Part shown: positions 4,336 to 25,165 of the stretch, piece by piece
Position numbering within the stretch: position 1 is the stretch's first letter
Layout: every line of letters starts with the position of its first letter
From: a virus
Direction: 5' to 3' (one strand)
IMG/VR virus record: IMGVR_UViG_3300044984_001435
Span: 1-30,406 of that record
DNA length: 30,406 bases
Notes under the pieces: generated by a model
What the model was told of the DNA's origin: nothing
Seen by the model: the letters and a program-made list of their open reading frames with translations, nothing else
Databases searched by the model: none
Translations under genes and position numbers: made by a program

Positions 4336-4345
4336 TATAAATATA
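4336..4345 (-). promoter_or_regulatory. AT element TATATTTATA upstream of gp13-like start
   Basis: In the gene's direction, TATATTTATA ends four bases before the ATG at 4331, where a ribosome-binding site would normally be; no Shine-Dalgarno sequence is present. It is identical in sequence and orientation to the elements before 370, 4432, 5890 and 10978. Confidence 0.45.
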
Positions 4346-4414: not shown

Positions 4415-4424
4415 TATATTTATA
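4415..4424 (+). promoter_or_regulatory. AT element TATATTTATA upstream of lysozyme start
   Basis: The ten-base element lies seven bases before the ATG at 4432 on the plus strand. Its presence here in the plus orientation, while minus-strand genes carry it in the minus orientation, shows that it tracks the direction of the gene. No Shine-Dalgarno sequence is visible. Confidence 0.45.
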
Positions 4425-4431
4425 TCAGTGT

Positions 4432-5169
4432 ATGATTAAACTTAAAGATTTGCTCCGGGAGAGTAATATAATAAAAATGGCCCAAGACGAAGTCCAAGAG
4501 GATTACCAACCACCGGCAGACAAAGCACCATACAGTGCACACGAATTAACGCCACCAGTACATGTGGCATATGCCGACCCAGCTGGGTACAAGAACGTTA
4601 AAGGTATGGAACCATATGTGCCAAAAAACACAGATTTCACGGGAATGAGCACGGCAAAAAAATTTGAAGTCTCTGCGAATTTTATAAAATATTTGAAACG
4701 GGTAGAGAACAATATAAAAAAGGGATTCAAAAACGGAAAGTGGTACCCTCACCCGGCGGTCGAAGGTGGAAAAAGTTGGGACATTGGATATGGTCACAAA
4801 ATAACCGCAAAAGACGATATGGCTAAATTCAGAAATGGTTTGACTGAACAGGAAGTCATGGCGTTATTGAAAAATGATATAGAAAAAGCAAAAACGGAAG
4901 TTGAGAATTATTTAAAAAATAATCGCCTGCCTACCAACCTTTCACAACACCAATGGGAAATGTTAATAGATTATTCATATAATTTAGGAACTGTTAGAAA
5001 ATTTCCAGAAATGGTAAAAGCCGTAGTATTCAAAGATTTGTCGAAAGCTAAACGGGAATATAAGAGATTTGGTACATTCGGCGGAACAAAAAAAGAATTG
5101 GGGCGCAATGCTGAATTTTATAACACGTATCTCAAAGACCCAAATGTGTGGAAAAATGGATTGGGATAA
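4432..5169 (+). CDS. GH24/T4-type lysozyme domain protein with N-terminal capsid-targeting-like leader
   Basis: A 245-residue protein. The C-terminal domain (about 83-245) looks like a phage-type muramidase (GH24) that cleaves peptidoglycan. It has a helix with candidate catalytic Glu92 (KYLKRVENN), then WDIGYGHKIT at 116-125, which corresponds to YTIGIGHLLT of T4 lysozyme. A later helix, QWEMLIDYSYNLGTV, matches the usual Leu/Phe-Asn-x-Gly helix. Residues 1-12 (MIKLKDLLRESN) form a short amphipathic helix ending in Leu-x-Glu, like the gp21-cleaved leaders of T4 internal proteins. Residues 20-80 are a Pro/Tyr-rich linker. There is no signal peptide or membrane segment. It leads a plus-strand group, followed 12 bases later by another leader-bearing protein. 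It may be a lysis endolysin, or an enzyme packaged in the head. The domain call is firm; the packaged role is inference. Confidence 0.75.
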   Translation: MIKLKDLLRESNIIKMAQDEVQEDYQPPADKAPYSAHELTPPVHVAYADPAGYKNVKGMEPYVPKNTDFTGMSTAKKFEVSANFIKYLKRVENNIKKGFKNGKWYPHPAVEGGKSWDIGYGHKITAKDDMAKFRNGLTEQEVMALLKNDIEKAKTEVENYLKNNRLPTNLSQHQWEMLIDYSYNLGTVRKFPEMVKAVVFKDLSKAKREYKRFGTFGGTKKELGRNAEFYNTYLKDPNVWKNGLG

Positions 5170-5181
5170 TTTACAAAACAT

Positions 5182-5565
5182 ATGAAATTAACTGAAATAT
5201 TAAACGAAATAGTCACAGAAGCCAGTGATATATCAAAGATAACTCAACCAGAACGCAAAAGAATATCCAATGAATTCCATAAGCATCCCGAACTCGGCGG
5301 CACAAAAAAAGTAGATAGTCTAGGAAAAGTATTAACTATAATTACGCAAGCGTTGGATGTGGTCGGGTTTCAATTAGACATGGTCACTGGGGATTTATTA
5401 CTAGGAGAAAAGGGGCAGAGATTGCTTCCATACAGTAGAAAATCAATTGACCCAAAAACAGACCCGATACAGATACAAAATAGCCGTATTAGTTTTACGT
5501 GGGAAAATATGAATCCCGACAAATTCGGGCCTAAGAACATCGAGATTATCGCGTATCCGTCATAA
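5182..5565 (+). CDS. Small protein of unknown function with capsid-targeting-like leader
   Basis: A 127-residue protein of no recognised family. Its start, MKLTEILNEIVTEASD, closely resembles the T4 internal-protein leader MKTYQEFIAEA in length, helix pattern and the Glu-Ala end (Val-Thr-Glu before Ala). The rest is mixed: a charged helix with ERKRISNEFHKHPELGG, a hydrophobic helix around residues 55-70 (VLTIITQALDVVGF), and strands near the C-terminus ending IEIIAYPS. It follows the lysozyme gene by 12 bases and is probably cotranscribed. Packaging into the capsid is inferred from the leader alone. Confidence 0.7.
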   Translation: MKLTEILNEIVTEASDISKITQPERKRISNEFHKHPELGGTKKVDSLGKVLTIITQALDVVGFQLDMVTGDLLLGEKGQRLLPYSRKSIDPKTDPIQIQNSRISFTWENMNPDKFGPKNIEIIAYPS

Positions 5566-5876: not shown

Positions 5877-5886
5877 TATATTTATA
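5877..5886 (+). promoter_or_regulatory. AT element TATATTTATA upstream of the 5890 gene
   Basis: The element ends three bases before the ATG at 5890 and follows the hairpin directly. It has the same sequence and orientation as the element before the lysozyme gene. Confidence 0.45.
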
Positions 5887-5889
5887 AGT

Positions 5890-6408
5890 ATGATTTTATT
5901 GAAACATCTTCTCAACGAAGTTCTTGATTCGCCTTATAAATACAAACATTCATTTGCAACCGAAGAAATTGACTACGAAGACGAAGAAACAGGGAAAACT
6001 TATAAAAAAGATGTATTAAGTCCCGTTCAAATAATAAGATTCAAAACTGACCATGGCGTTGATTATATGTGGTATGCCAAGCAAAGTAGATTCGATGACA
6101 CTGCGTGGGAAATAGCGTTCGGAGTCCACGAAGGAGTGGAATCGGACGGAACAAACAAATTAAATATCGGACTGACCAAAACCGGAGATGCGCTTAGAAT
6201 ATTTGCCACCATCATTGACATAACAAATAGTTTTGTTGAATTTGACGATGACAATCACGAGATATTGCGATTGACAATGACTGCCAAGGAAGATAATCGC
6301 GCCAACCTTTACATTAAAAGATTCGTTCCATTAATTGAAAATTTTAAGTTGGAAGACGTTAGAAAATTCCACGGTGAGTCGCATATTACGTTAGCTCGAA
6401 CAAATTGA
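5890..6408 (+). CDS. Protein of unknown function with capsid-targeting-like leader
   Basis: A 172-residue acidic protein from the ATG at 5890. The in-frame ATG at 5869 lies inside a hairpin, and its codons cover the AT element, so the later start is preferred. It begins MILLKHLLNEVLDSPYK, an amphipathic leader with Leu-Asn-Glu. The body is mainly beta-rich with many Asp/Glu pairs: YEDEETGKTYKKD, a strand with VDYMWYAKQ, then AWEIAFGVHEG, and a late FVEFDDDNHEILRLTM. It looks like one small globular domain of the sort seen in phage proteins of unknown function. It is the last plus-strand gene and ends convergently with the gp23 gene at a shared terminator. No function is assigned. Confidence 0.7.
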   Translation: MILLKHLLNEVLDSPYKYKHSFATEEIDYEDEETGKTYKKDVLSPVQIIRFKTDHGVDYMWYAKQSRFDDTAWEIAFGVHEGVESDGTNKLNIGLTKTGDALRIFATIIDITNSFVEFDDDNHEILRLTMTAKEDNRANLYIKRFVPLIENFKLEDVRKFHGESHITLARTN

Positions 6409-6493: not shown

Positions 6494-8098
6494 TTAGACT
6501 TCGTTCAAGTTGCCGATAACAATCTTACCGTAGAACTCAGGACGTAAGATCTTCTTGGCATAACGTGTCATCACGCCACGACGTGGGGTGAAGTTCACTG
6601 GGTCATACACCAACGGTGTTTGAATCAGTGGGATGTATGGAGCATATACAGCGCCGGTTTCTAGGAAGTTTGTTCCACGGAAACCTACCAACATGACGTT
6701 ATCGGTCATATATGGATTCTTGTAGATGGTCCAACGGTTGTTTAGAGCGCCAACTTTGGCAACGCCCATCGCGAACTTGGCTTGGTCGCCGTCCGTGTTG
6801 GTGCTGAATCCCGGAATGGATTCGATGATGGTAGCAACGTCCGGAGAACAGACTAGGAAGTTAGCTCCACCGCGCAATGTCAATTGGTGAATCTTGTTAG
6901 ATACCTTTTGGATTTTGTTTCCAAGTGTTTGGAACCATGTGCTCTTTACATAAGCTGTGCGATTTGCAGCAGTGTCATAGAATCCGCCCAAGTTGGCGTT
7001 GTATTCAGTTCCGATACGGGCGGACCAGTATTCGGTTGTTGCGGCAGGGGCAGCAGTTACCAACATGTCGAGGATTTCGAGGTCGATTTCCATCGAGACG
7101 TACTCCGACAACAGAGCAGTTAGCTCGGCTTCGGCGTCAATGGAGTGGTAGGCGTTCAAGTCTTGTGCCAACTCTGGTGTCCAGACGGCTTTCAACTTAC
7201 GTGTCTTTGCCACGATGGCTTCGCTCTTTAGCTCCAAGTTAACTTCTGGGATACCAATGTCGTTAGCAATGCCGGTTGCATTTGGCAATCCGGAACCTTG
7301 GTCTTCGAAGTCGCCACGGGAGGTGGCCTCTGGTTGCTTGTGGTAAGCAACTAGGATAGAAGGAGTAGCTCCGATTGCAGAACCGGAAACAACGAACGTT
7401 ACAACGTCGCCGGAGACCGTTGTGAATGCTGGGTAGAAATCAACAATTCCGGAACCGGAAACTGTGAACGCACGGATGCCAGTAGCATCAAAACCGGTGC
7501 TGTTCAAGTTGGCGGTAACGCGGAAGATTTCCTTGTCGGAAACGGACGAAGAAAGTTCTGGGACGAACTTTACGTCGAGGAACGAACCGGTGCTGGCTGT
7601 GCCAGTGACGGTTGTGGTCTGGTCATTGATGGTATAACCAAAGCGACCTTGGCCGTATAGACCGTTGGTTGCGCTGTCGGTGCTGCCCAACTTTGTGCCT
7701 GTGCCACCGAATAGCGACTGTCCGCTAAAGGCTGGCTTACCGGCTTGGTTGGAACCATATTTGAAGTCCAGATAGAATACTAGACCGGAAGGAAGATTCA
7801 TCGGTTGAACCGAGACGAATTCCTTGGCCGCGATTTCGGCGAACACACGACGAACTAGTGGAAGAGCAACGCCCGCCCATTGTTCGGAATTGGTGGAGGT
7901 ACCTGTGCGGGTAGCTTCATCAATTAGTTGTTTTGCTTGGTTCTCCAAAAGGATAGACATATGGGATTTTTCCATATCGTTCTTGACGCCTTCTAGAAGA
8001 CCAGTTTTTTCCCATTTGGCGACTAGGCCACGGGTTTGGGACATGAGTTGAACCATTGGGTTCGATGTCTCGCTGAGTAGTGATTTGATGTCTGACAT
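6494..8098 (-). CDS. gp23: Major capsid protein gp23
   Basis: A 534-residue protein, close to the 521 of T4 gp23, forming the head hexamers. After a charged helical N-terminal region comes LIDE at 58-61 followed by Ala62, a typical site for prohead protease gp21, close to where T4 gp23 is cut (after residue 65). Next come WAGVALPLVRRVFAEIAAKE and FVSVQPMNLPSGLVFYLDFK, the hallmark gp23 core segments. The C-terminal part has QTPLVYDPVNFTPRRGVMTR and ends PEFYGKIVIGNL. A Shine-Dalgarno-like AGGAAC precedes the ATG by about ten bases. It is last in the head operon and ends at the strong bidirectional terminator. The central region (about 150-260) is a Ser/Thr/Gly-rich insertion domain. Confidence 0.95.
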   Translation of the reverse strand: MSDIKSLLSETSNPMVQLMSQTRGLVAKWEKTGLLEGVKNDMEKSHMSILLENQAKQLIDEATRTGTSTNSEQWAGVALPLVRRVFAEIAAKEFVSVQPMNLPSGLVFYLDFKYGSNQAGKPAFSGQSLFGGTGTKLGSTDSATNGLYGQGRFGYTINDQTTTVTGTASTGSFLDVKFVPELSSSVSDKEIFRVTANLNSTGFDATGIRAFTVSGSGIVDFYPAFTTVSGDVVTFVVSGSAIGATPSILVAYHKQPEATSRGDFEDQGSGLPNATGIANDIGIPEVNLELKSEAIVAKTRKLKAVWTPELAQDLNAYHSIDAEAELTALLSEYVSMEIDLEILDMLVTAAPAATTEYWSARIGTEYNANLGGFYDTAANRTAYVKSTWFQTLGNKIQKVSNKIHQLTLRGGANFLVCSPDVATIIESIPGFSTNTDGDQAKFAMGVAKVGALNNRWTIYKNPYMTDNVMLVGFRGTNFLETGAVYAPYIPLIQTPLVYDPVNFTPRRGVMTRYAKKILRPEFYGKIVIGNLNEV

Positions 8099-10982: not shown

Positions 10983-10992
10983 TATAAATATA
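10983..10992 (-). promoter_or_regulatory. AT element TATATTTATA upstream of the 10978 start
   Basis: An exact copy in the gene's direction, ending four bases before the ATG at 10978. It occupies the usual Shine-Dalgarno position in the 51-base gap after gp21. Confidence 0.45.
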
Positions 10993-11029: not shown

Positions 11030-11650
11030 TTAACGAATCTCGGATAAAATATCTCTTACCAATCCTTCAATTTTCATATACTTGTCGATTTCGGTGCGGT
11101 CTATCAAAAAGTTTTTGTTCTCACGCAATCTACCTTCATTTAAATTCATATATGCTCCGCGTGTGGACGGAGAAGATACAAGGTCAAAGCACAGCAACTC
11201 AAAGTCCTCTTGAACTTCAACAGTATTTTCCGAGATTTGACGAGTAGAACCGAGCCCACGACTAGAAATGCCAATGCGAATATTGTTGCGAATTAAATCT
11301 CTGGCAATATTTCCACTGGGAGTTGTAAGAATCTCTATAGTCCCCATGACAGTGTCACCTTGCCAATGACAATCCACCACGTTGTGAGAGACATTTTTCA
11401 AATTGATGACAGAGGATTCTGGGTGGTCCAGCTCGCCCAATGCTCTGCGTTCTTTAATAATCTGTTGGTATTTTTCAACCTCGCGCTCCAAAACTGGGCG
11501 TGGATATATACGACCGTTGTGGTTCTTTTCTCCCGCTTTTTGCAATGGACCTTTCAAGGTGAATGGTCCGGAGGTGTGGTTTTTGGCTTCGTTCAACACT
11601 TCTGGTGTAATGTCGAAAGGCATGAAATCTACTAGAAGTTGTTTACTCAT
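11030..11650 (-). CDS. gp21: Prohead core protease gp21
   Basis: A 206-residue protein, near the 212 of T4 gp21. This serine protease matures the T4 prohead by cutting after hydrophobic-x-Glu. The N-terminal part has GPLQKAGEKNHNGRIYPRPV, a conserved prohead-protease segment. His76 lies in GELDHPESS, and the nucleophile Ser129 or Ser130 lies in RIGISSRGLGS; both match the family motifs. The C-terminus ends GLVRDILSEIR, which contains a candidate self-cleavage site (Leu-Ser-Glu before Ile), and EVLNEA at residues 17-22 is another. A GGAAAG sequence precedes the ATG. It is surrounded by genes whose products carry possible cleavage sites for it. Confidence 0.93.
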   Translation of the reverse strand: MSKQLLVDFMPFDITPEVLNEAKNHTSGPFTLKGPLQKAGEKNHNGRIYPRPVLEREVEKYQQIIKERRALGELDHPESSVINLKNVSHNVVDCHWQGDTVMGTIEILTTPSGNIARDLIRNNIRIGISSRGLGSTRQISENTVEVQEDFELLCFDLVSSPSTRGAYMNLNEGRLRENKNFLIDRTEIDKYMKIEGLVRDILSEIR

Positions 11651-11651
11651 A

Positions 11652-12227
11652 TTACTTTCCTTTTAAATTGTTTTTTGACACAAGATTAAATGCTTGTGGG
11701 TACACAAGTCCGCCCAAACTTCTTAATCCGCTTTCTTGTATTGGAGCTTGTGGAGGCAAATCTGCACCGGTTCCGGCGTTCGCCGGGGTCAAATCTACCT
11801 GTATTTTAGAATCTTCTATGTAATATTCCGATTGACCTTTATCATCCGTACCTGAGAATACGACATAGTATTTATCTTTGCTGTGAACATATCGAACGTC
11901 AATTGCAGTCACTGTGAACGTATAATCTTTCACAATATATTGGTCCATAGAACCTCTGGAAGCTTTCGCCATCACATTTTTGTTCAGAAATGTTTTGGAT
12001 AGAGAATCTACGAACTGTTTCTTTACTTTATCTTCCTCCGTTTGAACTTTGGCTTTAAAATTATTAAAATCGGACAAGATATCCACTGCCTTATTGTTTG
12101 GACTTGGTGGCGGAGTGACTGCCGTAGGAGAGCGTCCCGGTGCCGTAGGTGCACCGGCGGATGGGCCATCACCCCATGTGTTTTCGTTTAAAATTTTCTT
12201 TGCTAGTTCAGCGAGATTGATATTCAT
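11652..12227 (-). CDS. Unknown protein with capsid-targeting-like leader
   Basis: A 191-residue protein from the ATG at 12227, which has GGAAAA six bases upstream. A TTG four codons earlier is less likely. It begins MNINLAELAKKILNENTWGD: an amphipathic helix ending Leu-Asn-Glu. A disordered Pro/Ala/Gly/Thr stretch follows (residues 18-50), then a helix and a small beta domain with YTFTVTAIDVRYVHSKDKYY and VVFSGTDDKGQSEYYI. The C-terminal part is again flexible. It ends one base before the gp21 start and overlaps no gene. The leader points to head packaging; the function is unknown. Confidence 0.7.
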   Translation of the reverse strand: MNINLAELAKKILNENTWGDGPSAGAPTAPGRSPTAVTPPPSPNNKAVDILSDFNNFKAKVQTEEDKVKKQFVDSLSKTFLNKNVMAKASRGSMDQYIVKDYTFTVTAIDVRYVHSKDKYYVVFSGTDDKGQSEYYIEDSKIQVDLTPANAGTGADLPPQAPIQESGLRSLGGLVYPQAFNLVSKNNLKGK

Positions 12228-12228
12228 A

Positions 12229-12726
12229 TTATTTTCCAATTTTGTGTATACGTTTGGCTATATTTTTCATTCGGGTGTGCATTTCTTTCATATCCGGTGC
12301 CGTACTTTTCCATAAATTTTCCATCGGAATATCACATTCATTTTTTAGGCGTTCGCAAATGCCGAGTAAATATTCAACCTCGCCCAACATTTTCTTTGCT
12401 TCTTTTATTCCCAATGATACTTTTCGGTGATTTTTCATCAAGTCGCTGTCCTTGAAATTTTTATATTTGCTTTTACCTTCTTCAACTATTGTCAACTCTC
12501 TGCGCAACATTGGAAGACTGTCACCAGATTCTTTTTCCTCCACGGTAGACTTTTCTTCCTTGCCTACCAAGGTATATCCATCCAATCCAACGGTAGCCTC
12601 AGAACCTTTAGTTTTTTTTCGGCCCCAATTTGGAGTGTTGACGCCAGCAACGGCACTAGTACCTGTCATTTCTTCGATGACTTCTTCAACAAGTTCGCGA
12701 ATGATTTTTTTGACGTCGTTTGACAT
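12229..12726 (-). CDS. Unknown helical protein with capsid-targeting-like leader
   Basis: A 165-residue protein beginning MSNDVKKIIRELVEEVIEEM, an amphipathic helix with several Glu residues suitable for a hydrophobic-x-Glu cut (Val-Ile-Glu-Glu before Met). After it comes a flexible Gly/Thr/Lys stretch (NWGRKKTKGSEATVGLDGY). The C-terminal half is helical and charged, with KVSLGIKEAKKMLGEVEYLL and a final basic helix (RMKNIAKRIHKIGK). It lies one base after the preceding gene and one base before the next. No family is recognised. The layout (leader, linker, basic helix) resembles T4 internal proteins in general character only. Confidence 0.7.
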   Translation of the reverse strand: MSNDVKKIIRELVEEVIEEMTGTSAVAGVNTPNWGRKKTKGSEATVGLDGYTLVGKEEKSTVEEKESGDSLPMLRRELTIVEEGKSKYKNFKDSDLMKNHRKVSLGIKEAKKMLGEVEYLLGICERLKNECDIPMENLWKSTAPDMKEMHTRMKNIAKRIHKIGK

Positions 12727-12727
12727 T

Positions 12728-13084
12728 TTATCTTTGTGCTCTTGGAATCCAAGTTTTATTCTTCACATCTTTTTCATATCCTGAATAAATACGAGAAAGA
12801 AATTTAAAATGATCTGACTCTCTTTCATAATTACCGTGAACATTGGGCCTATTACGATCACCGTCGACATAGTCCGGTATGTCCTCGTAGCTTATTTCTA
12901 TTTTTTTATCAAGTTCTTCGGCGGTTTTAAAATTATATTTCTTCATTGCCCATTGGGTAAAATCTACTACATCTATATCGGGATTGTTCTTTTTTGCCCA
13001 ATTTTTAAGAATTTCACTCTCGGGAAGTCCATGGATTTCGTTGATCACTTCTCTGATTAGTTGTTTTAGTTGTGATTTTTTCAT
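12728..13084 (-). CDS. Small unknown protein with capsid-targeting-like leader
   Basis: A 118-residue protein beginning MKKSQLKQLIREVINEIHG. This leader is nearly the same as that of the next upstream gene (MTKSQLKQLISEVIQEY), although the rest of the two proteins is unrelated. The body is charged and partly helical (DFTQWAMKKYNFKTAEELDK) with a Tyr/Asp-rich end. It lies one base from the downstream gene. The shared leader suggests a transferable targeting segment attached to different cargo. Function unknown. Confidence 0.7.
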   Translation of the reverse strand: MKKSQLKQLIREVINEIHGLPESEILKNWAKKNNPDIDVVDFTQWAMKKYNFKTAEELDKKIEISYEDIPDYVDGDRNRPNVHGNYERESDHFKFLSRIYSGYEKDVKNKTWIPRAQR

Positions 13085-13096
13085 GTTTTAGTTTCT

Positions 13097-13624
13097 TTAT
13101 TTTTCTATCCTTGGAATTATATTGGTAGGAATGCCTGTTATTTTATGAATGGTTATCACTCCCTGTCTGTCAAATTGTATATTCCTTGCTTCTTTTCCGT
13201 CTATTGTAGCGACAGCATCAAATTGATTTTTATCATGAAAAATTCTGATAAACCCGTGTTTTGTGCTTTGACTTGGCTCACGTGTTCTAAATTGTAGTAT
13301 GTCATCGCTACCATCTCTGGAATAAGCAAATTTTAGTAAAGTGCTATCGCCGGACTTTTTTGTACCGGCAATTAACAAAATCTTACCTCCGCGCAGCCAA
13401 GAAAATGGCCACACGTCGTTTATACGAATATTGAATAATTTTTTATTATCTCCGACTGCGTTTTTTAAATTTGCGGTATCGGCTCTGTCCGCAAATCTAC
13501 TAGCTTGGGCCGGTTTACCTCTACTTGCCGCAATACCAGCAGCTTTGCTTTGAAACTCGGCGTCGGTGCTTTTATACTCTTGAATTACTTCGCTAATAAG
13601 TTGTTTTAATTGTGACTTTGTCAT
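13097..13624 (-). CDS. Unknown protein with capsid-targeting-like leader
   Basis: A 175-residue protein beginning MTKSQLKQLISEVIQEYKS. A helical Ala/Arg/Ser-rich segment follows (AAGIAASRGKPAQASRFADR), then a beta-rich domain from about residue 60 (FNIRINDVWPFSWLRGGKIL) with alternating strands to the C-terminus. No enzyme motif is recognised. It lies four bases downstream of the 13629 gene and is part of the same transcript. The leader matches the neighbouring 12728 gene, so both are probably directed to the same place, most likely the prohead core. Confidence 0.7.
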   Translation of the reverse strand: MTKSQLKQLISEVIQEYKSTDAEFQSKAAGIAASRGKPAQASRFADRADTANLKNAVGDNKKLFNIRINDVWPFSWLRGGKILLIAGTKKSGDSTLLKFAYSRDGSDDILQFRTREPSQSTKHGFIRIFHDKNQFDAVATIDGKEARNIQFDRQGVITIHKITGIPTNIIPRIEK

Positions 13625-13628
13625 ATGA

Positions 13629-14504
13629 TTATTTTAAATTCTTTAACTCTTTGATAAGCTCGTAACTCAACATCAGTGCGGTGATTTGACTCTCCTTAAC
13701 CAGCGTACCTTTGGAGATTTTATCCAACTGATTTAACGTCTCGTCGAGCTTTATTCGCACAATTTCGTTTCCAACTCGGGCCTTAAGTTCATTTATTTCT
13801 GTTCGAACTACTGGGATTTCTTGATTGATATACTGACGCAGAGAGTTTGTATTACTTATATTATTGATGTATTCCCGGATAAGAATTTTCTGCTTATCGT
13901 CAAGTCCCTTGTATTTCACATTAAACGAATCAATCAATAGTTTATACGCCAACAATCTTACTTCCTCGTTCTGTCTTTGATATACCTGCATCAAATCCTT
14001 TTTCTCGTCTTCGTTTATTGCGCGAGTTGGAGTCTTTGGCGCGGCAATACTTTCCACTATACAATTTCTGGCTTTAAATATATCCCGAGGGTCGCATTGC
14101 ACAGAATTAACAGATTCCTCGAATACTTTATATATGGATGCTAATAATTTATAATTCGTGATGCTACCTACCAAAAAATCCTCTAACGGATAATTTGCGC
14201 CGATTTCCTTTATCAGATTGTACTTTTGTAGATTTAATGATTTCTCATCCAGTTTAGTGCGGGTTCTGATGATTGTTTCTAAAAGTCTGTCAGCCGAAGT
14301 CTGGTCCTTGGTTTTTTCTTCTAAAATAATCCGGTACAATCTATTTTCCTTCCCCAGCTCAGTCGATTCCGAAAAATATTTTCGCAATATATTATTTGCT
14401 TTGGAGTCTTCGTTGCCGTTGAGAATGTCTGCGGTCACTTGACGGACAAGTAGCTCAAATAAAATACCGGCATTTTTATACTTAGAGTGTTTCAGCTTCT
14501 TCAT
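13629..14504 (-). CDS. Conserved-looking helical protein downstream of portal, function unknown
   Basis: A 291-residue, highly helical, charged protein beginning MKKLKHSKYKNAGILFELLV. It has long helices such as KDLMQVYQRQNEEVRLLAYK and a C-terminal coiled-coil-like region (VVRTEINELKARVGNEIVRI). I recall proteins with a similar start beside the portal gene in environmental T4-like phages, but cannot name a function. It lies 47 bases after gp20 with an AT element in the gap, and leads the block of small leader-bearing genes. It lacks the short leader itself. It could be an assembly or core protein. Confidence 0.7.
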   Translation of the reverse strand: MKKLKHSKYKNAGILFELLVRQVTADILNGNEDSKANNILRKYFSESTELGKENRLYRIILEEKTKDQTSADRLLETIIRTRTKLDEKSLNLQKYNLIKEIGANYPLEDFLVGSITNYKLLASIYKVFEESVNSVQCDPRDIFKARNCIVESIAAPKTPTRAINEDEKKDLMQVYQRQNEEVRLLAYKLLIDSFNVKYKGLDDKQKILIREYINNISNTNSLRQYINQEIPVVRTEINELKARVGNEIVRIKLDETLNQLDKISKGTLVKESQITALMLSYELIKELKNLK

Positions 14505-14516
14505 ACTTTTGTTAAT

Positions 14517-14526
14517 TATAAATATG
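14517..14526 (-). promoter_or_regulatory. AT element (9 of 10) upstream of the 14504 start
   Basis: Reads CATATTTATA in the gene's direction, one base from the common element, and lies 12 bases before the ATG at 14504 in the 47-base gap after gp20. Confidence 0.35.
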
Positions 14527-14551: not shown

Positions 14552-16498
14552 TTAGATCGGTTTATCTTCATCTTGTATATTAGACTCGTCTAATATGGAG
14601 AGATTCTCTGAGATTAATCTGGTCTTCTTCTCGTACCTATCCTTAAGAGACCTCTTTATATTCTTTAATTCTTCGTCCAAAGATGCTCCTCTATATATAT
14701 GTCGGGTTCGTCTATCACTCTTGGAATGTTCAACATTTCCCTTGTTTCCGAGGATATCTTCTCCACGAGTTTTTGTAAATGTGTCGCTATATAATTGTTT
14801 TTTTCCTTCTTGGCTTGGTCTAATTCCACGTTCGCGTTCTTTGCGGGTTTCTTCGTCAAGTTCTTCTCCGTCCACTTCCTCAACTTCTTCCAACGGCGGC
14901 AAATCTCCTCCTTTTGGTTCGCCTTCTCCCGGACTTGGTAATTCGGTATTGTCGGCCCCCATATCTAACGGTTCATTTCCCATATCTGGCCCTCCGCCTC
15001 CACCCACATCTCCCGGCGCACCGTCTGACATTTTTTGACCACTTGTTGCTGGGTCATTGCCTTCTTCAGTAATTTGTGCCATTCTCCACTCACCTTTCTT
15101 ATCCTTTATAACATCGGTCTGCAATTCTTCAATATCTTCGTCGGACATCTTAAATACTTTCGAATAAATCCAACGCTTGCTGAATAGATTCGATTCCATC
15201 ATGTCTTTGGAGACGTTGACTTTACTTTGCCAGATTTCGATTTTCTCTTGTTCAAATATCGTGGATGGATTGCTTAGTTCCAATTCGAAATCTACGAGAG
15301 ATGCGTCTTGATAGCCCTGAACATACAAGTGAACAATTGCAATCTTGGTCAATTCTGAGACAATGATGCGTTGAATTCTACCTATGGTTCTGGCAAATCG
15401 AACGTCTTCTGCGGCCAACGTAGCTTTTCCAGAAATTCCTTCTTCATATCCAAGAAATGCCTTTGGAATCTTTAATGCGGACATCATCTTGTTACGAATA
15501 TATTCCAAATCATCAATACCCGTAAATTCCATTCCGGGCAAAGTATCAATTGTAGTTCCGCTATCTCCCCCGCGAACTGGTAGATAGAAATCCTCCATCA
15601 TGTTATTTAGATTAAACCGCAAATTATAATCTCCGGTCTTCTCATCAATATATGGGACTTTTTTGACTTGTCCTATAATTTTTTGCATCGCCGAATCAAT
15701 CTCCGCCGGGGGAATGTTGCCGACGTCAATCTTGAAAATTCTCTTCTCCGGTGCGCGTATTATGCGGTGAATTAACATGGCGTCTTCCGCCAGACTTAAT
15801 TGCTTCCAAACGCGACGGGCGGGCTCAATCATGCTTTTACCATACGGCAAAAAGTTACTATCCGAAATCAGCCGGAAGTGCGCGATTTCGAAATTTTCGT
15901 ATTCCATTCCTCCGCCCAATCCGTCGTGTTGATATTTTACGTAGCTTAGGTTTTTGGGGTCGGAACCTTCGACGCGTGTAAGTTCATACGGGCTAATAGG
16001 ATGTACCCCGTGCACACCATACTCTGGAGATATTTCCAACCGTAGGAAAAAATCTCCATACTTACACATGTTACGAGTCCAACTCCACATATTAAATTCG
16101 ATGTTGAGAATATCATAAAACAAGTTTTCTAGTATTTTTTTTATATTTTCGTTTTTTGAGCGAATGGTTAACACTTGCCCAAATTCACTTGGCACCAGAC
16201 ATTCATCTGAGTAAATATCCAATGCTGAGGCGATGATTGGGTCCATATCCATCACGTCGTAGTCTCTGAACAACTCCAATCGAGACGATTGATATGCCAT
16301 GGACATGTCTCTATTGTGTAAATTATAAGTAGAACTTCTCAGTCTATTAAATCTGTCTCGCAGACTGTTTCTATCCGTCGCGTACTGAACGTTATCCGTG
16401 TCTATAATCTTCAACGTTTTGCCGCCCTTATGACGGGCAATAACGTTCGTCGAAAACATCTTCTTTAATCTCGTGAATAAGTCTTTTTGTTCAGCCAT
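14552..16498 (-). CDS. gp20: Portal vertex protein gp20
   Basis: A 648-residue protein matching gp20, the dodecameric portal that starts head assembly and channels DNA. Diagnostic segments are YDVMDMDPIIASALDIYSDE (about 80-99), FYLPVRGGDSGTTIDTLPG (304-322) and ALKIPKAFLGYEEG (341-354). T4 gp20 has 524 residues; the extra length is a C-terminal tail from about 475, first Gly/Pro/Asp-rich, then acidic (LEEVEEVDGEELDEETRK) and finally basic-helical. The gene lies directly after the terminase gene, reversing nothing relative to T4 (17 upstream, then 20 and 21), although in T4 genes 18 and 19 lie between. An AT element lies upstream. Confidence 0.95.
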   Translation of the reverse strand: MAEQKDLFTRLKKMFSTNVIARHKGGKTLKIIDTDNVQYATDRNSLRDRFNRLRSSTYNLHNRDMSMAYQSSRLELFRDYDVMDMDPIIASALDIYSDECLVPSEFGQVLTIRSKNENIKKILENLFYDILNIEFNMWSWTRNMCKYGDFFLRLEISPEYGVHGVHPISPYELTRVEGSDPKNLSYVKYQHDGLGGGMEYENFEIAHFRLISDSNFLPYGKSMIEPARRVWKQLSLAEDAMLIHRIIRAPEKRIFKIDVGNIPPAEIDSAMQKIIGQVKKVPYIDEKTGDYNLRFNLNNMMEDFYLPVRGGDSGTTIDTLPGMEFTGIDDLEYIRNKMMSALKIPKAFLGYEEGISGKATLAAEDVRFARTIGRIQRIIVSELTKIAIVHLYVQGYQDASLVDFELELSNPSTIFEQEKIEIWQSKVNVSKDMMESNLFSKRWIYSKVFKMSDEDIEELQTDVIKDKKGEWRMAQITEEGNDPATSGQKMSDGAPGDVGGGGGPDMGNEPLDMGADNTELPSPGEGEPKGGDLPPLEEVEEVDGEELDEETRKERERGIRPSQEGKKQLYSDTFTKTRGEDILGNKGNVEHSKSDRRTRHIYRGASLDEELKNIKRSLKDRYEKKTRLISENLSILDESNIQDEDKPI

Positions 16499-19287: not shown

Positions 19288-19422
19288 TTATTGCCCACGG
19301 CCCCAACCACTCACACCCGTGTAATAAATTATATTGTTGGTAGAAGTTAATTTAAGACTATCGAACAACTTCTCGGCGACTGATACGTAATTCTCATCGC
19401 TGTGGGTTACGTACAAGTTCAT
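19288..19422 (-). pseudogene. 44-codon ORF, possible truncated remnant
   Basis: The ATG overlaps the kinase stop as ATGA (19419-19422), so it would be translated by coupling. The peptide begins MNLYVTHSDENYVSVAEKLF and continues to NIIYYTG before ending in GWGRGQ. The start looks like the first beta-alpha-beta unit of a larger nucleotide-sugar or glycosyltransferase-type protein, and I recall phage proteins opening in this way, but nothing follows. It may be a gene cut short by deletion or a genuine small protein. The family is uncertain. Confidence 0.4.
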
Positions 19423-20150
19423 ATGACAGATACACCGCGATGCTTCACCACTTTACTTGCACACTTGTTCGCGAATTTGATTGCCGCCCGGATATCTTCA
19501 TTTTTGCTATATTCTATCACCAACCCGGCCAAGAAAGAATCCCCGGCCCCGGATACGTCAATAACGTCTCCTCGCTCGACTGGGAAATTCTCCCCGAGAT
19601 AATAACATCCGTCTGCCCCGGATGTTTGAATTATTTTACCGGCCATCTCGGAGGTTATAACACTCTTAGACCTAGCAAATTCGTGGTCATTTATTTTAAT
19701 AAATTTAACATACTTAGTCCAAGCCCCCAATACTTTTTTGGTGTCTAAAAACACGTTGGTATGATTTTTAGAAATATCCTCAATGTCCGACTCGGTCAAA
19801 AATCCCTTATCGTAATCGGATATTACAATATAATCGTATAAATAATTAATATCGCCCAAGTTAATACGTTGCATTTCTTCCGCCGAATCTAATCTAAAAA
19901 ACATATGATTAGTGGAACTGTGGACATATCGTGTTTTTGTGATATTATACCAATTAGAATTGGTCACAATGTCACAATCATCTATGGTCGTTTTGATATT
20001 TCGATGCACATTCTTTGCCATGCCGGGATTGTCGTTCTGGTCAACAATCTGTAGGATTGGTACTGGCTTGTCTGGACACATACGAGTTGATGAGCAATAA
20101 ACATGCACGTCTCGACAACTGTCACCTATCACTAAAATTCGTTTACTCAT
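19419..20150 (-). CDS. PfkB-family sugar kinase, HldE/RfaE N-domain-like (heptose phosphate kinase candidate)
   Basis: A 243-residue ribokinase-family protein. It starts with the glycine strand RILVIGDSCRDVHVY and has NPGMAKNVHRN at 41-51, the counterpart of the Gly-Gly-Ala-Ala-Asn-Val segment. It ends with the PfkB signature DVSGAGDSFLAGL at 198-210, in which Asp204 is the catalytic base. The order and the start resemble the kinase half of HldE, which phosphorylates D-glycero-D-manno-heptose 7-phosphate at C1. At 243 residues it is shorter than that domain (about 310), so some lid or loop segments are reduced. It overlaps the transketolase C gene by an ATGA. The exact substrate is inferred from the heptosyltransferase and transketolase neighbours. 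Confidence 0.7.
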   Translation of the reverse strand: MSKRILVIGDSCRDVHVYCSSTRMCPDKPVPILQIVDQNDNPGMAKNVHRNIKTTIDDCDIVTNSNWYNITKTRYVHSSTNHMFFRLDSAEEMQRINLGDINYLYDYIVISDYDKGFLTESDIEDISKNHTNVFLDTKKVLGAWTKYVKFIKINDHEFARSKSVITSEMAGKIIQTSGADGCYYLGENFPVERGDVIDVSGAGDSFLAGLVIEYSKNEDIRAAIKFANKCASKVVKHRGVSVI

Positions 20151-20629
20151 ATTAGATGCTTGCCGTCTTTTTTAAGACAAATTATTGCCGGTTTCTTCAA
20201 TAGATGCGCCTCAATCATCGCTCTCTCGGTTTCCTCCGAATTTCTCGGGAAAAAGCTGACAATATTCTTGAATAGTGCACATAATCCCGGCGCATTCAAT
20301 GGTCGGTGTGTAGGGCCATGTGTAGGATAGTCCGAGAATCCAATTAATGTCACCGGCAAACATTGCTCGTCAATGTCGATTTTAATCTGCTCAAACGGGC
20401 GTTCCAGTAGAAATGGGGTGATGGAGTATACCACGGGGCGAATGCCCTCTAAACACATCCCAGCTGCCATACTAATCATACTCTGCTCACACAGTCCAAG
20501 GTTATAAAACCTGTCCGGGAATTGTTGCTTGAATTCGTCCATTTCTTGGACCACGTCTCCGGTAAGCAAGAATAGATTTGGGTCTTTCTTTCCTAGAGTT
20601 ACTATAGTTTTACCAAATGCTTTTCTCAT
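20147..20629 (-). CDS. Transketolase, pyrimidine-binding half (C-terminal subunit)
   Basis: A 160-residue protein from the ATG at 20629, four bases after the stop of its partner. A longer frame from 20722 would overlap the partner and is rejected. It matches the central Pyr domain of transketolase: LLTGDVVQEMDEF near the start and YNLGLCEQSMISMAAGMCLE with Glu48, the residue that activates thiamine diphosphate. These are followed by RPVVYSITPFLLERPFEQIK and a HGPTHRPLNAP segment. It lacks the third, C-terminal transketolase domain, which makes it shorter than typical split subunits (about 300). With the 20634 gene it should form the two-subunit enzyme that moves two-carbon units between sugar phosphates. 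Confidence 0.85.
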   Translation of the reverse strand: MRKAFGKTIVTLGKKDPNLFLLTGDVVQEMDEFKQQFPDRFYNLGLCEQSMISMAAGMCLEGIRPVVYSITPFLLERPFEQIKIDIDEQCLPVTLIGFSDYPTHGPTHRPLNAPGLCALFKNIVSFFPRNSEETERAMIEAHLLKKPAIICLKKDGKHLI

Positions 20630-20633
20630 ATAT

Positions 20634-21359
20634 TTAGGATAATTGTTTAAGAATCTCAGCTTCTTCCGCTGCGTTCGGCCACTTGGAGTGCCATTCGGGC
20701 TTGTTCTCCATAAAATCCACACCTTTTCCTTTCACTGTATTTGCTACAACAAAACGCGGCTTATCGCTGGTGGCTAGCAGCGCCGCCAATATCTCGGACT
20801 CGGCGTGTCCATCTATTATAGAAACGTCCCACCCACAAGACTGCGCAACTGCTGCGATATTATCTACTGGTAAGATATCGCTGACATAACCGGAGCCTTG
20901 AATTTTGTTAAAATCGACTATTATTGTAAGGTTGTTCAACTTGTGAAATCCTCCCAATAACAAGCTTTCCCAAGTAGTTCCTTCTTGGCATTCTCCGTCT
21001 CCCATTAATACAAACACACGCCCATTCTTTTTCAATTTCTTTTTTGCGAATGCCATTCCCATACCGGCAGGAAATCCGTGACCCTCGCTACCAGTTGTCC
21101 AATGTATTCCATTTGGTATATCCAAGTGTGGATGTCCTTCCAGTGTAGGATTCAACCCCTTCTCTCGCAAAATTACATAAAGCCCCCAGCAAGAGTGTCC
21201 TTTGCTCAAAATGAACTTATCGTCTTTACCAAGGACTCTGTCATATAAATTTGACAAAATTTCAATTGTTGAAAATGTGCCACCGTAATGATAGCCACCA
21301 TTTGCTTTCGAGAGCTTATATAAGTCTCTACGTAACTGTTTTGAGCGTTCGTTTAACAT
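20634..21359 (-). CDS. Transketolase, thiamine diphosphate-binding half (N-terminal subunit)
   Basis: A 241-residue protein with the transketolase PP domain. It has KGHSCWGLY at 53-61, GSEGHGFPAGMGMAFA at 90-105, and the thiamine diphosphate/magnesium motif GDGECQEG at 120-127 followed by Asn151 in IIVDFNKIQGSG. Residues and spacing fit split transketolases of bacteria and archaea (N-terminal subunit about 270). Transketolase forms sedoheptulose 7-phosphate from pentose phosphates, the entry point to bacterial heptose synthesis. It is three bases after the dehydrogenase stop. A phage copy of a two-gene transketolase within a glycan operon suggests precursor supply, which is inference. Confidence 0.88.
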   Translation of the reverse strand: MLNERSKQLRRDLYKLSKANGGYHYGGTFSTIEILSNLYDRVLGKDDKFILSKGHSCWGLYVILREKGLNPTLEGHPHLDIPNGIHWTTGSEGHGFPAGMGMAFAKKKLKKNGRVFVLMGDGECQEGTTWESLLLGGFHKLNNLTIIVDFNKIQGSGYVSDILPVDNIAAVAQSCGWDVSIIDGHAESEILAALLATSDKPRFVVANTVKGKGVDFMENKPEWHSKWPNAAEEAEILKQLS

Positions 21360-21362
21360 ATT

Positions 21363-22373
21363 TTAAATATCAATCATTATTCTTCCACTTTTACCCGAGC
21401 GGAGCTGGTCAACTGCGGAGTTGATGTTTAACAGACCGTGTCTATCTGTGATTAAGTTTTGTAACTTTATTAGTTGGTTCTTGTAGAGATTTAAATATCT
21501 GGGAATATCGGAATCCGGGTCAAATCCACCAGCTTGAGTAGTACGAATGGATTGGCCTCCGGTGGAGAATAGTTTTCCCGGATTGATTACCGTGAGTTGT
21601 GAATCTGGTTTCGGTTGGGCCACTAATATGCAACGCCCCCGGTCGGAAAGCAGAGGCAAGTATCGAGAAACCAAAGCCATGTTGCCGGTGGTGTCTATGA
21701 TGCAGTCGAATGGACCCGGAAGGTCTGCATATTCATTTCCATTAAAAAAGATGCCTCCGTTTCTAGTTACTATACCTTCTTTTTCTGGTGCAATGTCCAC
21801 TCCATATATTGGATATGCCTGAGATAAACTTGCCGCATAAATACAATTTAATCCCACTCCACCACACCCCAAAACCAATACGCTCTCTCCAAATTTTATA
21901 TTTGCATCTTTGTTTACGACGGCAAATCCGGTTGATAAACCACATCCCAAGAGAGCAACAAAATCGTTGTGAGTATCGAGCGCCACTCTGGTCAATCTAT
22001 TTTCCGATACCACGCTATATTCCGACAATGTCGTAATCTTCCCACCAGACATGGACTTTCCATTCAACCTATAAACAGGAAACTTGGCTTCTATTCCACT
22101 CCCCTTTCTCCAATGCATAACTACCTTATCACCAAATTTTACTTTGGTTACTCCCGGTCCTATTGCCTCAACAATGCCACATCCCTCGTGACCGATAAGA
22201 TGTGGCATGAATTTTTCATTTCCTTTTAGTCCGGCTATCTCTTGGAGTTGTGCTCCACAAAGACCGCTAACTAACACCTTTACTATAACTTGACCGTAGT
22301 CTAGAGTGTTTGGTAGTTCGACATCTTCTATAACTAACGGTTCGTTCTTTTTATATAAAACGGCAGCTTTCAT
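21363..22373 (-). CDS. Zinc-type medium-chain dehydrogenase (alcohol/polyol dehydrogenase-like)
   Basis: A 336-residue medium-chain dehydrogenase/reductase. The catalytic zinc set is present: Cys39 (SGLCGAQL), His62-Glu63 (GHEGCGIVEAIGPGV) and Cys144 (LLGCGLSTGF). The NAD(P) fold has VLVLGCGGVGLN at 165-176. The four-Cys structural zinc loop is missing: the stretch from about 86 to 110 (HWRKGSGIEAKFPVY) has none. The family oxidises or reduces alcohols and sugar alcohols; the substrate is not predictable here, but a sugar or sugar-phosphate intermediate fits the operon. It has its own candidate promoter, 10 bases before the ATG, so it may start a second transcript with the transketolase and kinase. 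Confidence 0.87.
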   Translation of the reverse strand: MKAAVLYKKNEPLVIEDVELPNTLDYGQVIVKVLVSGLCGAQLQEIAGLKGNEKFMPHLIGHEGCGIVEAIGPGVTKVKFGDKVVMHWRKGSGIEAKFPVYRLNGKSMSGGKITTLSEYSVVSENRLTRVALDTHNDFVALLGCGLSTGFAVVNKDANIKFGESVLVLGCGGVGLNCIYAASLSQAYPIYGVDIAPEKEGIVTRNGGIFFNGNEYADLPGPFDCIIDTTGNMALVSRYLPLLSDRGRCILVAQPKPDSQLTVINPGKLFSTGGQSIRTTQAGGFDPDSDIPRYLNLYKNQLIKLQNLITDRHGLLNINSAVDQLRSGKSGRIMIDI

Positions 22374-22383
22374 GTATAGAAAT

Positions 22384-22411
22384 ATAGTAAACTTTTAAAT
22401 CTATATGTCAA
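22384..22411 (-). promoter_or_regulatory. Candidate sigma70 promoter for dehydrogenase-transketolase-kinase genes
   Basis: In the minus direction, TTGACA (22406-22411, perfect -35), a 16-base spacer, then TACTAT (22384-22389, 4 of 6 to the -10). It fills the only gap in the glycan operon. The ATG is 10 bases past the -10, so the transcript would be leaderless or nearly so. Confidence 0.5.
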
Positions 22412-22417
22412 GAAAAA

Positions 22418-25165
22418 TTACCAAATAGTTCTTCCACCATCAATTATAAGATTGTGTCCTGTTACATATGACGAGGCGTCGGATGCCAAGAATACTGCCC
22501 CACCAGCAATTTCGTCGGCGCAGCCAACACGTTTCATTGGTACCATGTCGGATAGCCCACGTACATACTGTGGATTTGCATTCGCCGCGTCTGCTGGGGG
22601 TTTAGGAAAGTGGCCCGGACTTATACAATTTACTCTTATACCTTTATCGGCATATTGAACTGCAAGTTCTTTGGTCAGTTGAATAGATGCCGCTTTTGCT
22701 GCACAATAAAACGCGGTCGAACTTGGTACAACTTGATATGCACGTTGGTCTATTCCAATCATTCCATATATGGACGCAATATTAATTATATTGCCATAAT
22801 TTTTCTTGGTCATTTTTGGTAAAACTACCTGACAGCACATGAATTGCTGAGTGAGAATGTTATCCATGCCAGTAGACCAGTCTGCATCTGTCAATTGTTC
22901 GAACGGTTTTCTTTTTTCGTTGAACGCATTATTTACTAAAATATCTACGTCGCCTATATTGTCTATGACCGATTGGAACTGACTCCTGTCTGTCACGTCG
23001 CATACGGTTGGTATAATATTATCTTTTAGAAAATTTTCCGCTGTTAATAACTTATCTTTTATTTTTGATACATCTCTACCAATAGCATACACTTTTGCAC
23101 CTTGTGCCACCAGTCCCATGCAAATAGATGCGCCCAAATGCCCACCCGCCCCAGTGACGACTGCGGTTTTACCTTTCAAATTAAACAGATTATTATAAAA
23201 AGATGGGTCGGTTATTAATTTTGTAGACTGTCTTGCTTCTGGCGAATTATCAATTTTTGGCGGAGGCGTATTTACTACCAAACTTACTTTCTTTTGTTTC
23301 TCGGCAGCAATTTCATCAGATGGCCGATTATCCATATAAATTAGAATTTCTTCGTAATATTCTAGGAAATGTTCATTGAATAAATCCCATTTTATATCTA
23401 CGCCATCTACACTACGAACTTCGTAGTTATTAATGGTAACTAGATAAGTATCTCTAAATTTACGGAATGCCTCGGTTCTGGGTTCATCTTCTAGATGCCA
23501 CTCACCAGCAACTTTCTTGACATTTTTCATAATCCAATCTCTGTTTTCAACCGTGAATATATCATATTCCCCACCCTCACAGTCAATCTTCATGAAATCT
23601 ATTTTGTCAATCTTAGCCTCCGCCATTATGTCTAATAATGGAGCCGTCGTGAAATCCTCAACCACACAGTCATACACCAATCCATCTTTTATAAATTGAG
23701 GCTCTTTTGATACGCCTTTGTTTACTACGATGACCGGCAATCCTTCTAGATTTTTCTTTAATACTTCGGACCTAATTGCACTTGGTTCGACTGCCACGAC
23801 AAGCTTTGGCTTCTTTCTAAATGCGCCACATGAAAATGCGCCAACGTGTGCGCCAATGTCCATAACAATATCTCCGTCTTGAACTTCAAACATAGATTCA
23901 TATACATTGTCCAAGAATATTTCTCTATATAACAATTCCTTTTGGCCAGTTGTCACCCGGCTTCCCCACTGGAATTTGTGTATTGTGTTTCTGTAGAATG
24001 GAGTTTGCAATTTGTCAATTTCTTTAATGACCATTTCAGAGCTGATTTGTGTGGTGCACTCGAAATTTTTCTTTCGGGGACAATACATCCAATTTCCTTT
24101 ATCGAATTTGGTAGTGTCATCGTTTGTGCATCCGTGACACACGCTTTTATTTATAACTCTGTGTGGCGTGAAAAACTCTGTAAATCTGTCACCCACTCCA
24201 CTAATCAATATTACCGGAATTCCAACTGTCCATGCAATCCATGATAGACCAGAACTTAGCCCGATGAAAAAGTCAGCCCCACTCAGTTGTTCCATGCGAA
24301 CTTCGAGTGGGAAATCCCCCGTCTTATCGACCGCTCCTCTCGGCATATAGTTCATAGACTCTTTACTTCCATACGAACTGTGTCTATCTATGCACCACAC
24401 CTCATATCCAAGTTGTTTTAAGTATCTAACAACTTCGTCCCACCCCGTCTTATTGTTCCAGTACTTGAATTGCGCGGTAGATTGCATTCCAATACATACA
24501 TATTTTTTATCGCCATGCTTCTTTGACCTATCAAATGCAAACGTCGGTTTGAAATCTACCATTCCAAATCCTAGTATATCGCTTGCAATATTTGCCAAAC
24601 ACATATGTTGAGGGTTACGTCTTGCACGACCTTGCCAATTCGAAAACCAACCTATCTTGTATGCCGCATAATAGTCTTCATCCCGCTCATTTACACCGGA
24701 AAAAGATATATTTTTATAATTTTCTATAAATATGTTACGCATCACTTCGCTAAAAACGACGCAATGTAATTGACATTTATGTTTAAATTGGAATTCGTTT
24801 ACTGCTCCAATATAAGCAATCAAATCCCCAATTGATTGTGTATCTAACACTACTTTTACCGGTTTATTTTCTAATGTTAATTTTTCTTCTTTTACCACCG
24901 TAGAACCGAGTTTCACGACAACTTTCCAATTTACAAAATATTTCGTGTTATCTGCACACCACATATTATTTTTTATAGTGGTAGAATAGGTGATAGAGTT
25001 CTTATCCAAGTCTATAAAATCGACTGTATATTCTTCCGGAATATCCCCGGTTATATTGACTTTTGGGCCATCTACGAAGCTGATTCGTATATTATTGTGT
25101 ATGTCTCCCACGTCTGTAGGACTAAGCATTGCATTTTTATAACTGTCAATTAGCTCGTACTTCAT
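22418..25165 (-). CDS. Three-domain fusion: autotransporter-type O-heptosyltransferase, FkbM methyltransferase and SDR oxidoreductase
   Basis: A 915-residue protein. Residues 1 to about 390 resemble the TibC/BAH-type autotransporter heptosyltransferases of the GT9 fold. The metal-finger cysteines lie at 343, 346, 362 and 370 (SVCHGCTND, then WMYCPRKKNFECTTQIS), and the donor-site region includes GADFFIGLSSGLSWIAW at 296-312. Residues about 400-615 are an FkbM-type methyltransferase: MDIGAHVGAFS at 435-445 binds SAM and FMKIDCEGGEYDIF lies at 524-537. Residues about 655-915 are a short-chain dehydrogenase with TGAGGHLG at 671-678, NNA at 745-747, Ser798, and Tyr820/Lys824. Linkers between domains are short and Pro-rich (VVNTPPPKIDNSP). 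TibC-type enzymes put heptose on Ser of repeat proteins. The ATG overlaps the GT4 stop. The domain calls are from remembered motifs. Confidence 0.8.
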   Translation of the reverse strand: MKYELIDSYKNAMLSPTDVGDIHNNIRISFVDGPKVNITGDIPEEYTVDFIDLDKNSITYSTTIKNNMWCADNTKYFVNWKVVVKLGSTVVKEEKLTLENKPVKVVLDTQSIGDLIAYIGAVNEFQFKHKCQLHCVVFSEVMRNIFIENYKNISFSGVNERDEDYYAAYKIGWFSNWQGRARRNPQHMCLANIASDILGFGMVDFKPTFAFDRSKKHGDKKYVCIGMQSTAQFKYWNNKTGWDEVVRYLKQLGYEVWCIDRHSSYGSKESMNYMPRGAVDKTGDFPLEVRMEQLSGADFFIGLSSGLSWIAWTVGIPVILISGVGDRFTEFFTPHRVINKSVCHGCTNDDTTKFDKGNWMYCPRKKNFECTTQISSEMVIKEIDKLQTPFYRNTIHKFQWGSRVTTGQKELLYREIFLDNVYESMFEVQDGDIVMDIGAHVGAFSCGAFRKKPKLVVAVEPSAIRSEVLKKNLEGLPVIVVNKGVSKEPQFIKDGLVYDCVVEDFTTAPLLDIMAEAKIDKIDFMKIDCEGGEYDIFTVENRDWIMKNVKKVAGEWHLEDEPRTEAFRKFRDTYLVTINNYEVRSVDGVDIKWDLFNEHFLEYYEEILIYMDNRPSDEIAAEKQKKVSLVVNTPPPKIDNSPEARQSTKLITDPSFYNNLFNLKGKTAVVTGAGGHLGASICMGLVAQGAKVYAIGRDVSKIKDKLLTAENFLKDNIIPTVCDVTDRSQFQSVIDNIGDVDILVNNAFNEKRKPFEQLTDADWSTGMDNILTQQFMCCQVVLPKMTKKNYGNIINIASIYGMIGIDQRAYQVVPSSTAFYCAAKAASIQLTKELAVQYADKGIRVNCISPGHFPKPPADAANANPQYVRGLSDMVPMKRVGCADEIAGGAVFLASDASSYVTGHNLIIDGGRTIW

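Follow-up and report, generated by a model that had tools for sequence, protein, structure and literature searches.

The closest described parallels to the locus reported here come from phage T4 and a few other phages. In T4, the propeptides of head proteins are 10 to 19 residues long, residues 4 and 7 of the internal protein IPIII matter for targeting and residues 8 and 10 for processing, and the internal proteins are ejected into the host cytoplasm (PMC9026906). A head-packaged, peptidoglycan-degrading protein that is ejected at infection is known from T7 (gp16; PMC6116005), and crassviruses keep their cargo protein 1 in the capsid and the tail (PMC10172136). Enzymes of the cyanophages S-CREM2 and S-SCSM1 that carry a leader were detected in CsCl-purified virions (PMC10665884, PMC9602691), and the S-CREM2 authors were uncertain whether the regulatory enzymes among them are truly packaged (PMC10665884).

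The stretch of DNA analyzed here in its entirety (the window) is a 30,406-base metagenomic record from a T4-like phage of an environmental sample, with genes for a portal protein, a terminase (PF03237), an S77 protease, and the major capsid protein gp23, all on the minus strand. By the protease, its nearest cultured relatives are Microcystis phage Mel-JY01 (50%) and the Flavobacterium immuto phages (46%). A lysozyme gene sits in a short plus-strand island, with gp23 on one side and a neck-type gene on the other. The features of the locus are as follows.

4336..4343, plus strand: TATAAATA, resembling a T4 late promoter (T4 late box), 96 nt upstream of the lysozyme ATG
4417..4424, plus strand: TATTTATA, directly upstream of the lysozyme ATG
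4432..5169, plus strand: GH24 lysozyme precursor, 245 aa, ATG start (PF00959, fold match)
5182..5565, plus strand: second leader gene, MKLTEILNE..., 127 aa
5617..5823, plus strand: small lipoprotein, 68 aa, lipobox LGGC, about 450 bp downstream of the lysozyme gene
5890..6408, plus strand: third leader gene, MILLKHLLNE..., start corrected from 5869
6494..8098, minus strand: major capsid protein gp23 (PF07068)
11030..11650, minus strand: prohead protease S77, gp21-like, predicted to cut the leader (PF03420, E = 7.4e-24; phrog_207)
11652..13624, minus strand: four small genes between portal and protease, in the place of T4 gp67/gp68
14552..16498, minus strand: portal protein gp20 (PF07230)

Three of the four small genes between portal and protease have leader-like N termini (MKKSQLKQLIRE, MTKSQLKQLISE, and MSNDVKKIIRE). 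In one relative (L007), the second leader gene is replaced by an unrelated leader gene that begins MIKLKQLIE|A. In gp23, LIDE|A lines up with FLTE|A, where the T4 protein is cut, and the pattern in the group is [LI]xxE|[AS]; the N terminus of gp23, MSDIKSLLSE (8069-8098), itself matches the leader pattern. The rest of the window includes a block of sugar genes at 19419-27282, encoding a PfkB kinase, a transketolase in two ORFs, a zinc dehydrogenase, a glycosyltransferase-FkbM-SDR fusion, and a protein with group 1 glycosyltransferase domains. The ORFs at 27536-30394 and 9-392 are a wrong-frame reading of minus-strand collagen-like Gly-X-Y repeats; in the right-end repeats (27536-30394), Gly makes up 93% of every third residue.

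Pfam matched Phage_lysozyme (PF00959) to residues 113 to 219 of the lysozyme (E = 1.5e-10; score 41.9 bits, cut-off 22.3). In the AlphaFold2 model, residues 4 to 10 form a helix, residues 14 to 57 are disordered, and a domain modeled with confidence starts at about residue 80; residues 75 to 241 match the lysozymes of T4, P22, and prophages with VIA-align Z scores of 11.7 to 12.4. The gene can thus be divided into three parts.

4432..4461, plus strand: capsid-targeting-like leader MIKLKDLLRE, codons 1 to 10, predicted cut after Glu10 (T4 register, leader family, conservation)
4462..4647, plus strand: linker, residues 11 to 72, predicted to be disordered at 14 to 57 (model, alignments)
4675..5148, plus strand: lysozyme domain, residues 82 to 239, predicted catalytic residues E92, E111, and D117 (alignments, model, fold match)

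In the alignments, residues 40 to 72 of the linker form a conserved motif of the type PP..H.AYA.PA...KPY....IDFSG. The counterparts of T4 E11, D20, and T26 appear to be E92, E111, and D117. E92 and E111 are conserved, and the T26 position is occupied by D117 in the window lysozyme and by Asp in that of L007 but by Thr in most relatives, for which reason the muramidase activity of the window copy is putative. Neither a signal peptide nor a transmembrane segment was found in the protein, the 19-residue Kyte-Doolittle maximum being 0.41 overall and -0.21 in the first 40 residues, and on this hydropathy a SAR or secreted endolysin was rejected. Pfam, the AlphaFold2 model, and hydropathy together confirm the architecture described in the original prediction, a GH24 domain behind a leader and a flexible linker without a signal peptide. 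It had also pointed to the lack of a holin close by; none was recognized near the gene, but this carries little weight because the T4 holin gene, to our knowledge, is likewise not adjacent to gene e. The small lipoprotein gene downstream had been overlooked. The mature lysozyme has a predicted pI of 9.3 and a net charge of +9, resembling T4 IPIII. Matches in bacterial genomes were weak (24 to 39% over parts of the protein). Phage matches included a lysozyme of phage CBB, and the CBB endolysin was dropped as a parallel because it is described with an N-terminal transmembrane segment.

The N terminus of the lysozyme, MIKLKDLLRE|SNI, is in register with MKTYQEFIAE|A of ipII/ipIII and MAKINELLRE|STT of gp24 in the T4 genome. 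It carries L4, L7, L8, and E10, that is, the hydrophobic residues at 4, 7, and 8 and the Glu at the cut of a T4-type leader, and a gp21-type S77 protease is encoded in the same window.

The leader is not confined to the lysozyme. In related loci, a regular expression for it matched 196 of 1,393 gene N termini versus 35 of 4,215 internal methionines, a comparison that is partly redundant since the loci include overlapping, near-identical contigs. A second test was therefore made on 98 proteins with mutually unlike bodies, with only the opening M[ILVFM]x[LF]x fixed. Among the free positions, 81 of the 98 had L/I at position 7, 80 had L/I/V at position 8, and 53 had Glu at position 10 against a background of 7.2%; these counts are approximate, as some of the ORFs are probably spurious and some families, lysozymes included, are counted repeatedly. 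By both sets of counts, the leader in this phage group is not a product of chance. MIKLKxLLxE opens dozens of unrelated proteins of aquatic T4-like phages (contigs L002-L180 and L206-L220; for example, L080 3838-11866), often in runs of neighboring genes, and looks like a general signal for head cargo. Its carriers include an ADP-ribosyltransferase-like protein in L036 (PF18760, below its cut-off) and NUDIX-like proteins (judged by eye). A 250-kb contig encodes a 306-aa protein in which the leader is fused to GNAT acetyltransferase and lysozyme domains (L113 5545-6465). The consensus of the window phage group, MIKLKxLLxE, differs from the MKxFxxFLxE of cyanophage virion enzymes.

We compared the virion proteome table of S-CREM2 (PMC10665884) with the 219 CDS of that phage. 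A leader with Glu10 opens all three virion enzymes listed as regulatory (a SAM hydrolase, a kinase, and a cytidylyltransferase), and gp13 and gp136, also found in virions, carry one too. When known structural proteins are left out, 5 of 9 motif carriers were detected in virions versus 23 of 186 other proteins (Fisher p = 0.0036); for all proteins, the same comparison gave p = 0.037. Four proteins with the broad motif were undetected in virions. The S-CREM2 lysozymes gp169 and gp170 have no leader and are absent from the virion list. Two large proteins called endolysins in the table, gp208 and gp209, are in virions without a leader, and their size and position beside baseplate genes suggest that they are tail parts. 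As to the doubt of the S-CREM2 authors, the leader favors true packaging of the regulatory enzymes. Another virion-detected protein, the Cas9-like gp12 (L097 7704-10313), has a leader-like SFMAE|A near residue 24, which suggests a longer propeptide or an annotated start that is too early. In S-SCSM1, of which three stretches were read, the virion NMNAT begins MKSFLQFLKE|A (PMC9602691).

Taken at the level of sequence, packaging of the window lysozyme in the head and its cleavage by the S77 protease encoded nearby are well supported by the T4 register, the leader family, the cyanophage virion enzymes, and the protease gene. Capsid packaging, which the original prediction had proposed, is in our judgment, rather than by computation, quite probable. 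We could find no earlier case of a lysozyme that bears a T4-type capsid-targeting leader. A literature search, covering the nearest isolates through one Flavobacterium phage paper, found no virion proteomics of the window phage or close relatives.

Among 18 members of the lysozyme family, pairwise identity is 67% in the leader, 47% in the next stretch, 60% in the linker motif, and 68% in the catalytic motif, and nonsynonymous changes make up 48% of codon differences in the leader versus 68 to 69% elsewhere in the gene. On these figures, selection at the protein level maintains the leader to about the same degree as the catalytic motif. It is present in 28 of 46 distinct related lysozyme contexts and absent by the regular expression in the other 18. 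In relatives whose gp23 is 84 to 92% identical, the locus holds a divergent lysozyme that shares the leader and the conserved linker motif; several relatives have lysozymes with other N-terminal fusions, and the syntenic lysozyme of a 353-kb relative (G002) lacks the leader. The idea that the lysozyme is a dispensable accessory was rejected, as the loci of the relatives missed by PF00959 hold a divergent leader-lysozyme in the same place. In two contigs of relatives, a protein whose N terminus resembles a signal peptide adjoins the lysozyme (L014 4895-5689 and L018 11660-12493), and the one in L014 is a DNA/RNA non-specific endonuclease (PF01223).

Upstream of the gene, the late-box-like TATAAATA occurs 13 times in the window versus 2.2 times expected in shuffles, and it is found upstream in relatives too. 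TATTTATA also precedes the neck gene, the leader gene at 5890, the gp22-like gene, and the core gene at 13629-14504; 5 of its 13 copies are near a start codon (Poisson p of about 4e-6). Copies lie directly 5' of head-gene starts at 4417-4424, 5879-5886, 10983-10990, and 14517-14524. A clear Shine-Dalgarno sequence is absent before most genes of the window, and this scarcity and the position of TATTTATA may reflect very short 5' leaders in late mRNA. Judged by these elements, expression of the lysozyme is late-like.

We propose that the leader of the precursor, folded as a short amphipathic helix, would dock into the prohead scaffold core in the manner of the T4 internal proteins, and that the phage's own S77 protease would cut after Glu10, so that a basic lysozyme of 235 aa would be enclosed with the DNA. 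The enzyme would exit through the tail together with the DNA at infection and, if it meets the periplasm, would cut peptidoglycan at the entry site. Late-made lysozyme that stays unpackaged would probably double as the endolysin, since no other peptidoglycan hydrolase was found in the one large relative inspected in detail (G034, 297 kb). For this explanation as a whole, we estimate a probability of roughly 0.65. Its parts differ in strength. A muramidase has no substrate in the cytoplasm, and a periplasmic role, the one suggested in the original prediction and one option among several, needs extra assumptions because the T4 internal proteins reach the cytoplasm; given packaging, we would set the chance of an entry function at just under even, again by judgment and not by computation. 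An endolysin function, alone or additional, is by the same kind of judgment evenly balanced. That one lysozyme acts both at entry, as the packed form, and at exit, as the unpackaged form, with MIKLKxLLxE marking many proteins, few of them described so far, that are delivered from the head in common aquatic T4-like phages, is a tentative proposal with the odds somewhat against it.

The main alternative is that the protein is a plain phage endolysin equivalent to T4 gpe, in which case packaged copies would be idle and a late cytoplasmic pool, with a distant holin, would lyse the cell. The relative G034, as far as its 297-kb sequence reaches, speaks for it: the leader-lysozyme is its one family match and its one lysozyme gene, and profile searches for Amidase_2, M15_3, M15_4, M23, GH19, and SLT gave no match there. 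Nor was a second GH24 or hub lysozyme found in G034, with a T4 control showing both of its two; a GH108 search matched nothing anywhere, controls included, and is hence uninformative. The second endolysin gene that the original prediction had suggested looking for, and whose absence it had named as one half of its refutation, was thus not found in this 297-kb relative, the window being a 30-kb fragment, and because of this a combined or purely endolysin role stays viable. In the window and in L007, L026, and L030, the gene is followed by one for a small lipoprotein, which in L030 is weakly similar to Rz1/o-spanin. Late expression and the lipoprotein neighbor fit a lysis gene as well; T4 gene e adjoins ipIII and ipII, and the syntenic lysozyme of G002 is leaderless. 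However, a canonical gpe-type endolysin has no packaging leader, which the window protein has, and an idle tag would not need selection about as strong as that on the catalytic motif. Leaderless GH19 enzymes take the place of the lysozyme in more distant relatives (W01 and W02; Mel-JY01 and the immuto phages), and the leaderless gp169 and gp170 of S-CREM2 are outside virions. We regard a plain endolysin as unlikely, though it deserves serious consideration.

The N terminus might instead be a translation-friendly or scaffold-independent motif, the A/T-rich MIKLK codons aiding initiation without a Shine-Dalgarno sequence, as would suit a window in which few genes have one and a family in which many leader genes open with ATG ATT AAA or similar; but the pattern extends to Glu10 with a fixed hydrophobic spacing and codons that vary synonymously, and the same register is found on virion enzymes of other T4-like phages, so we hold this to be very improbable. 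A tail or baseplate lysozyme, as a detached form of T4 gp5, is harder still to credit, for the match to PHROG 13211 (baseplate hub and tail lysozyme) is limited to the lysozyme end (744-860 of 887), the neighbors of the gene are gp23 and a neck-type gene and not baseplate genes, and the 245 aa, in which Pfam finds only PF00959, hold no hub or needle domain, on which ground this reading was rejected.

If packaging and ejection of the lysozyme are true, it would be the first peptidoglycan hydrolase known to us to enter the head by T4-type capsid targeting, and it would supplant the customary arrangement of one lysin in the tail for entry and another in the cell for exit. The leader would be a simple sequence rule for spotting the proteins that aquatic T4-like phages bring into their hosts, having been seen on lysozyme and GNAT proteins and on ADP-ribosyltransferase-like and NUDIX-like ones. 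It could also explain the repeated detection of NMNAT-like and kinase proteins in cyanophage virions by proteomics.

Among known systems, T4 gpe shares the GH24 fold (Z of about 12) at about 20% identity but has neither leader nor linker, and T4 gp5 is alike in that a GH24 domain is carried in the virion; the original prediction was correct in setting the window protein apart from gpe, which has no leader, and from gp5 of the tail needle. T7 gp16 is, by analogy, a precedent for a head-packaged hydrolase, but it belongs to the ejectosome, is large, carries a transglycosylase motif, and is not known to us to have a cleaved leader. In the cargo protein 1 homolog of crassvirus cr128_1, residues 331 to 458 are 30% identical to the window lysozyme (E = 5e-9), and this lysozyme-like stretch lies ahead of a crAss_CARG1 domain (L238 5011-7575). 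The crAss_CARG1 domain is absent from the window lysozyme, and cr128_1 is a podovirus. The homolog, with its putative lysozyme-like activity, is a parallel and not a relative in organization. The T4 internal proteins IPI, IPII, IPIII, and Alt share with the window lysozyme a ten-residue leader, hydrophobic residues at 4, 7, and 8, Glu10, and a basic mature protein, and share with its phage group an S77 protease and variable accessory genes that have only the leader in common. T4 cargo differs in comprising restriction inhibitors and an ADP-ribosyltransferase and no peptidoglycan hydrolases, and the presence of the window lysozyme in virions is predicted. The cyanophage virion enzymes have the same type of leader with Glu10, but on different enzymes.
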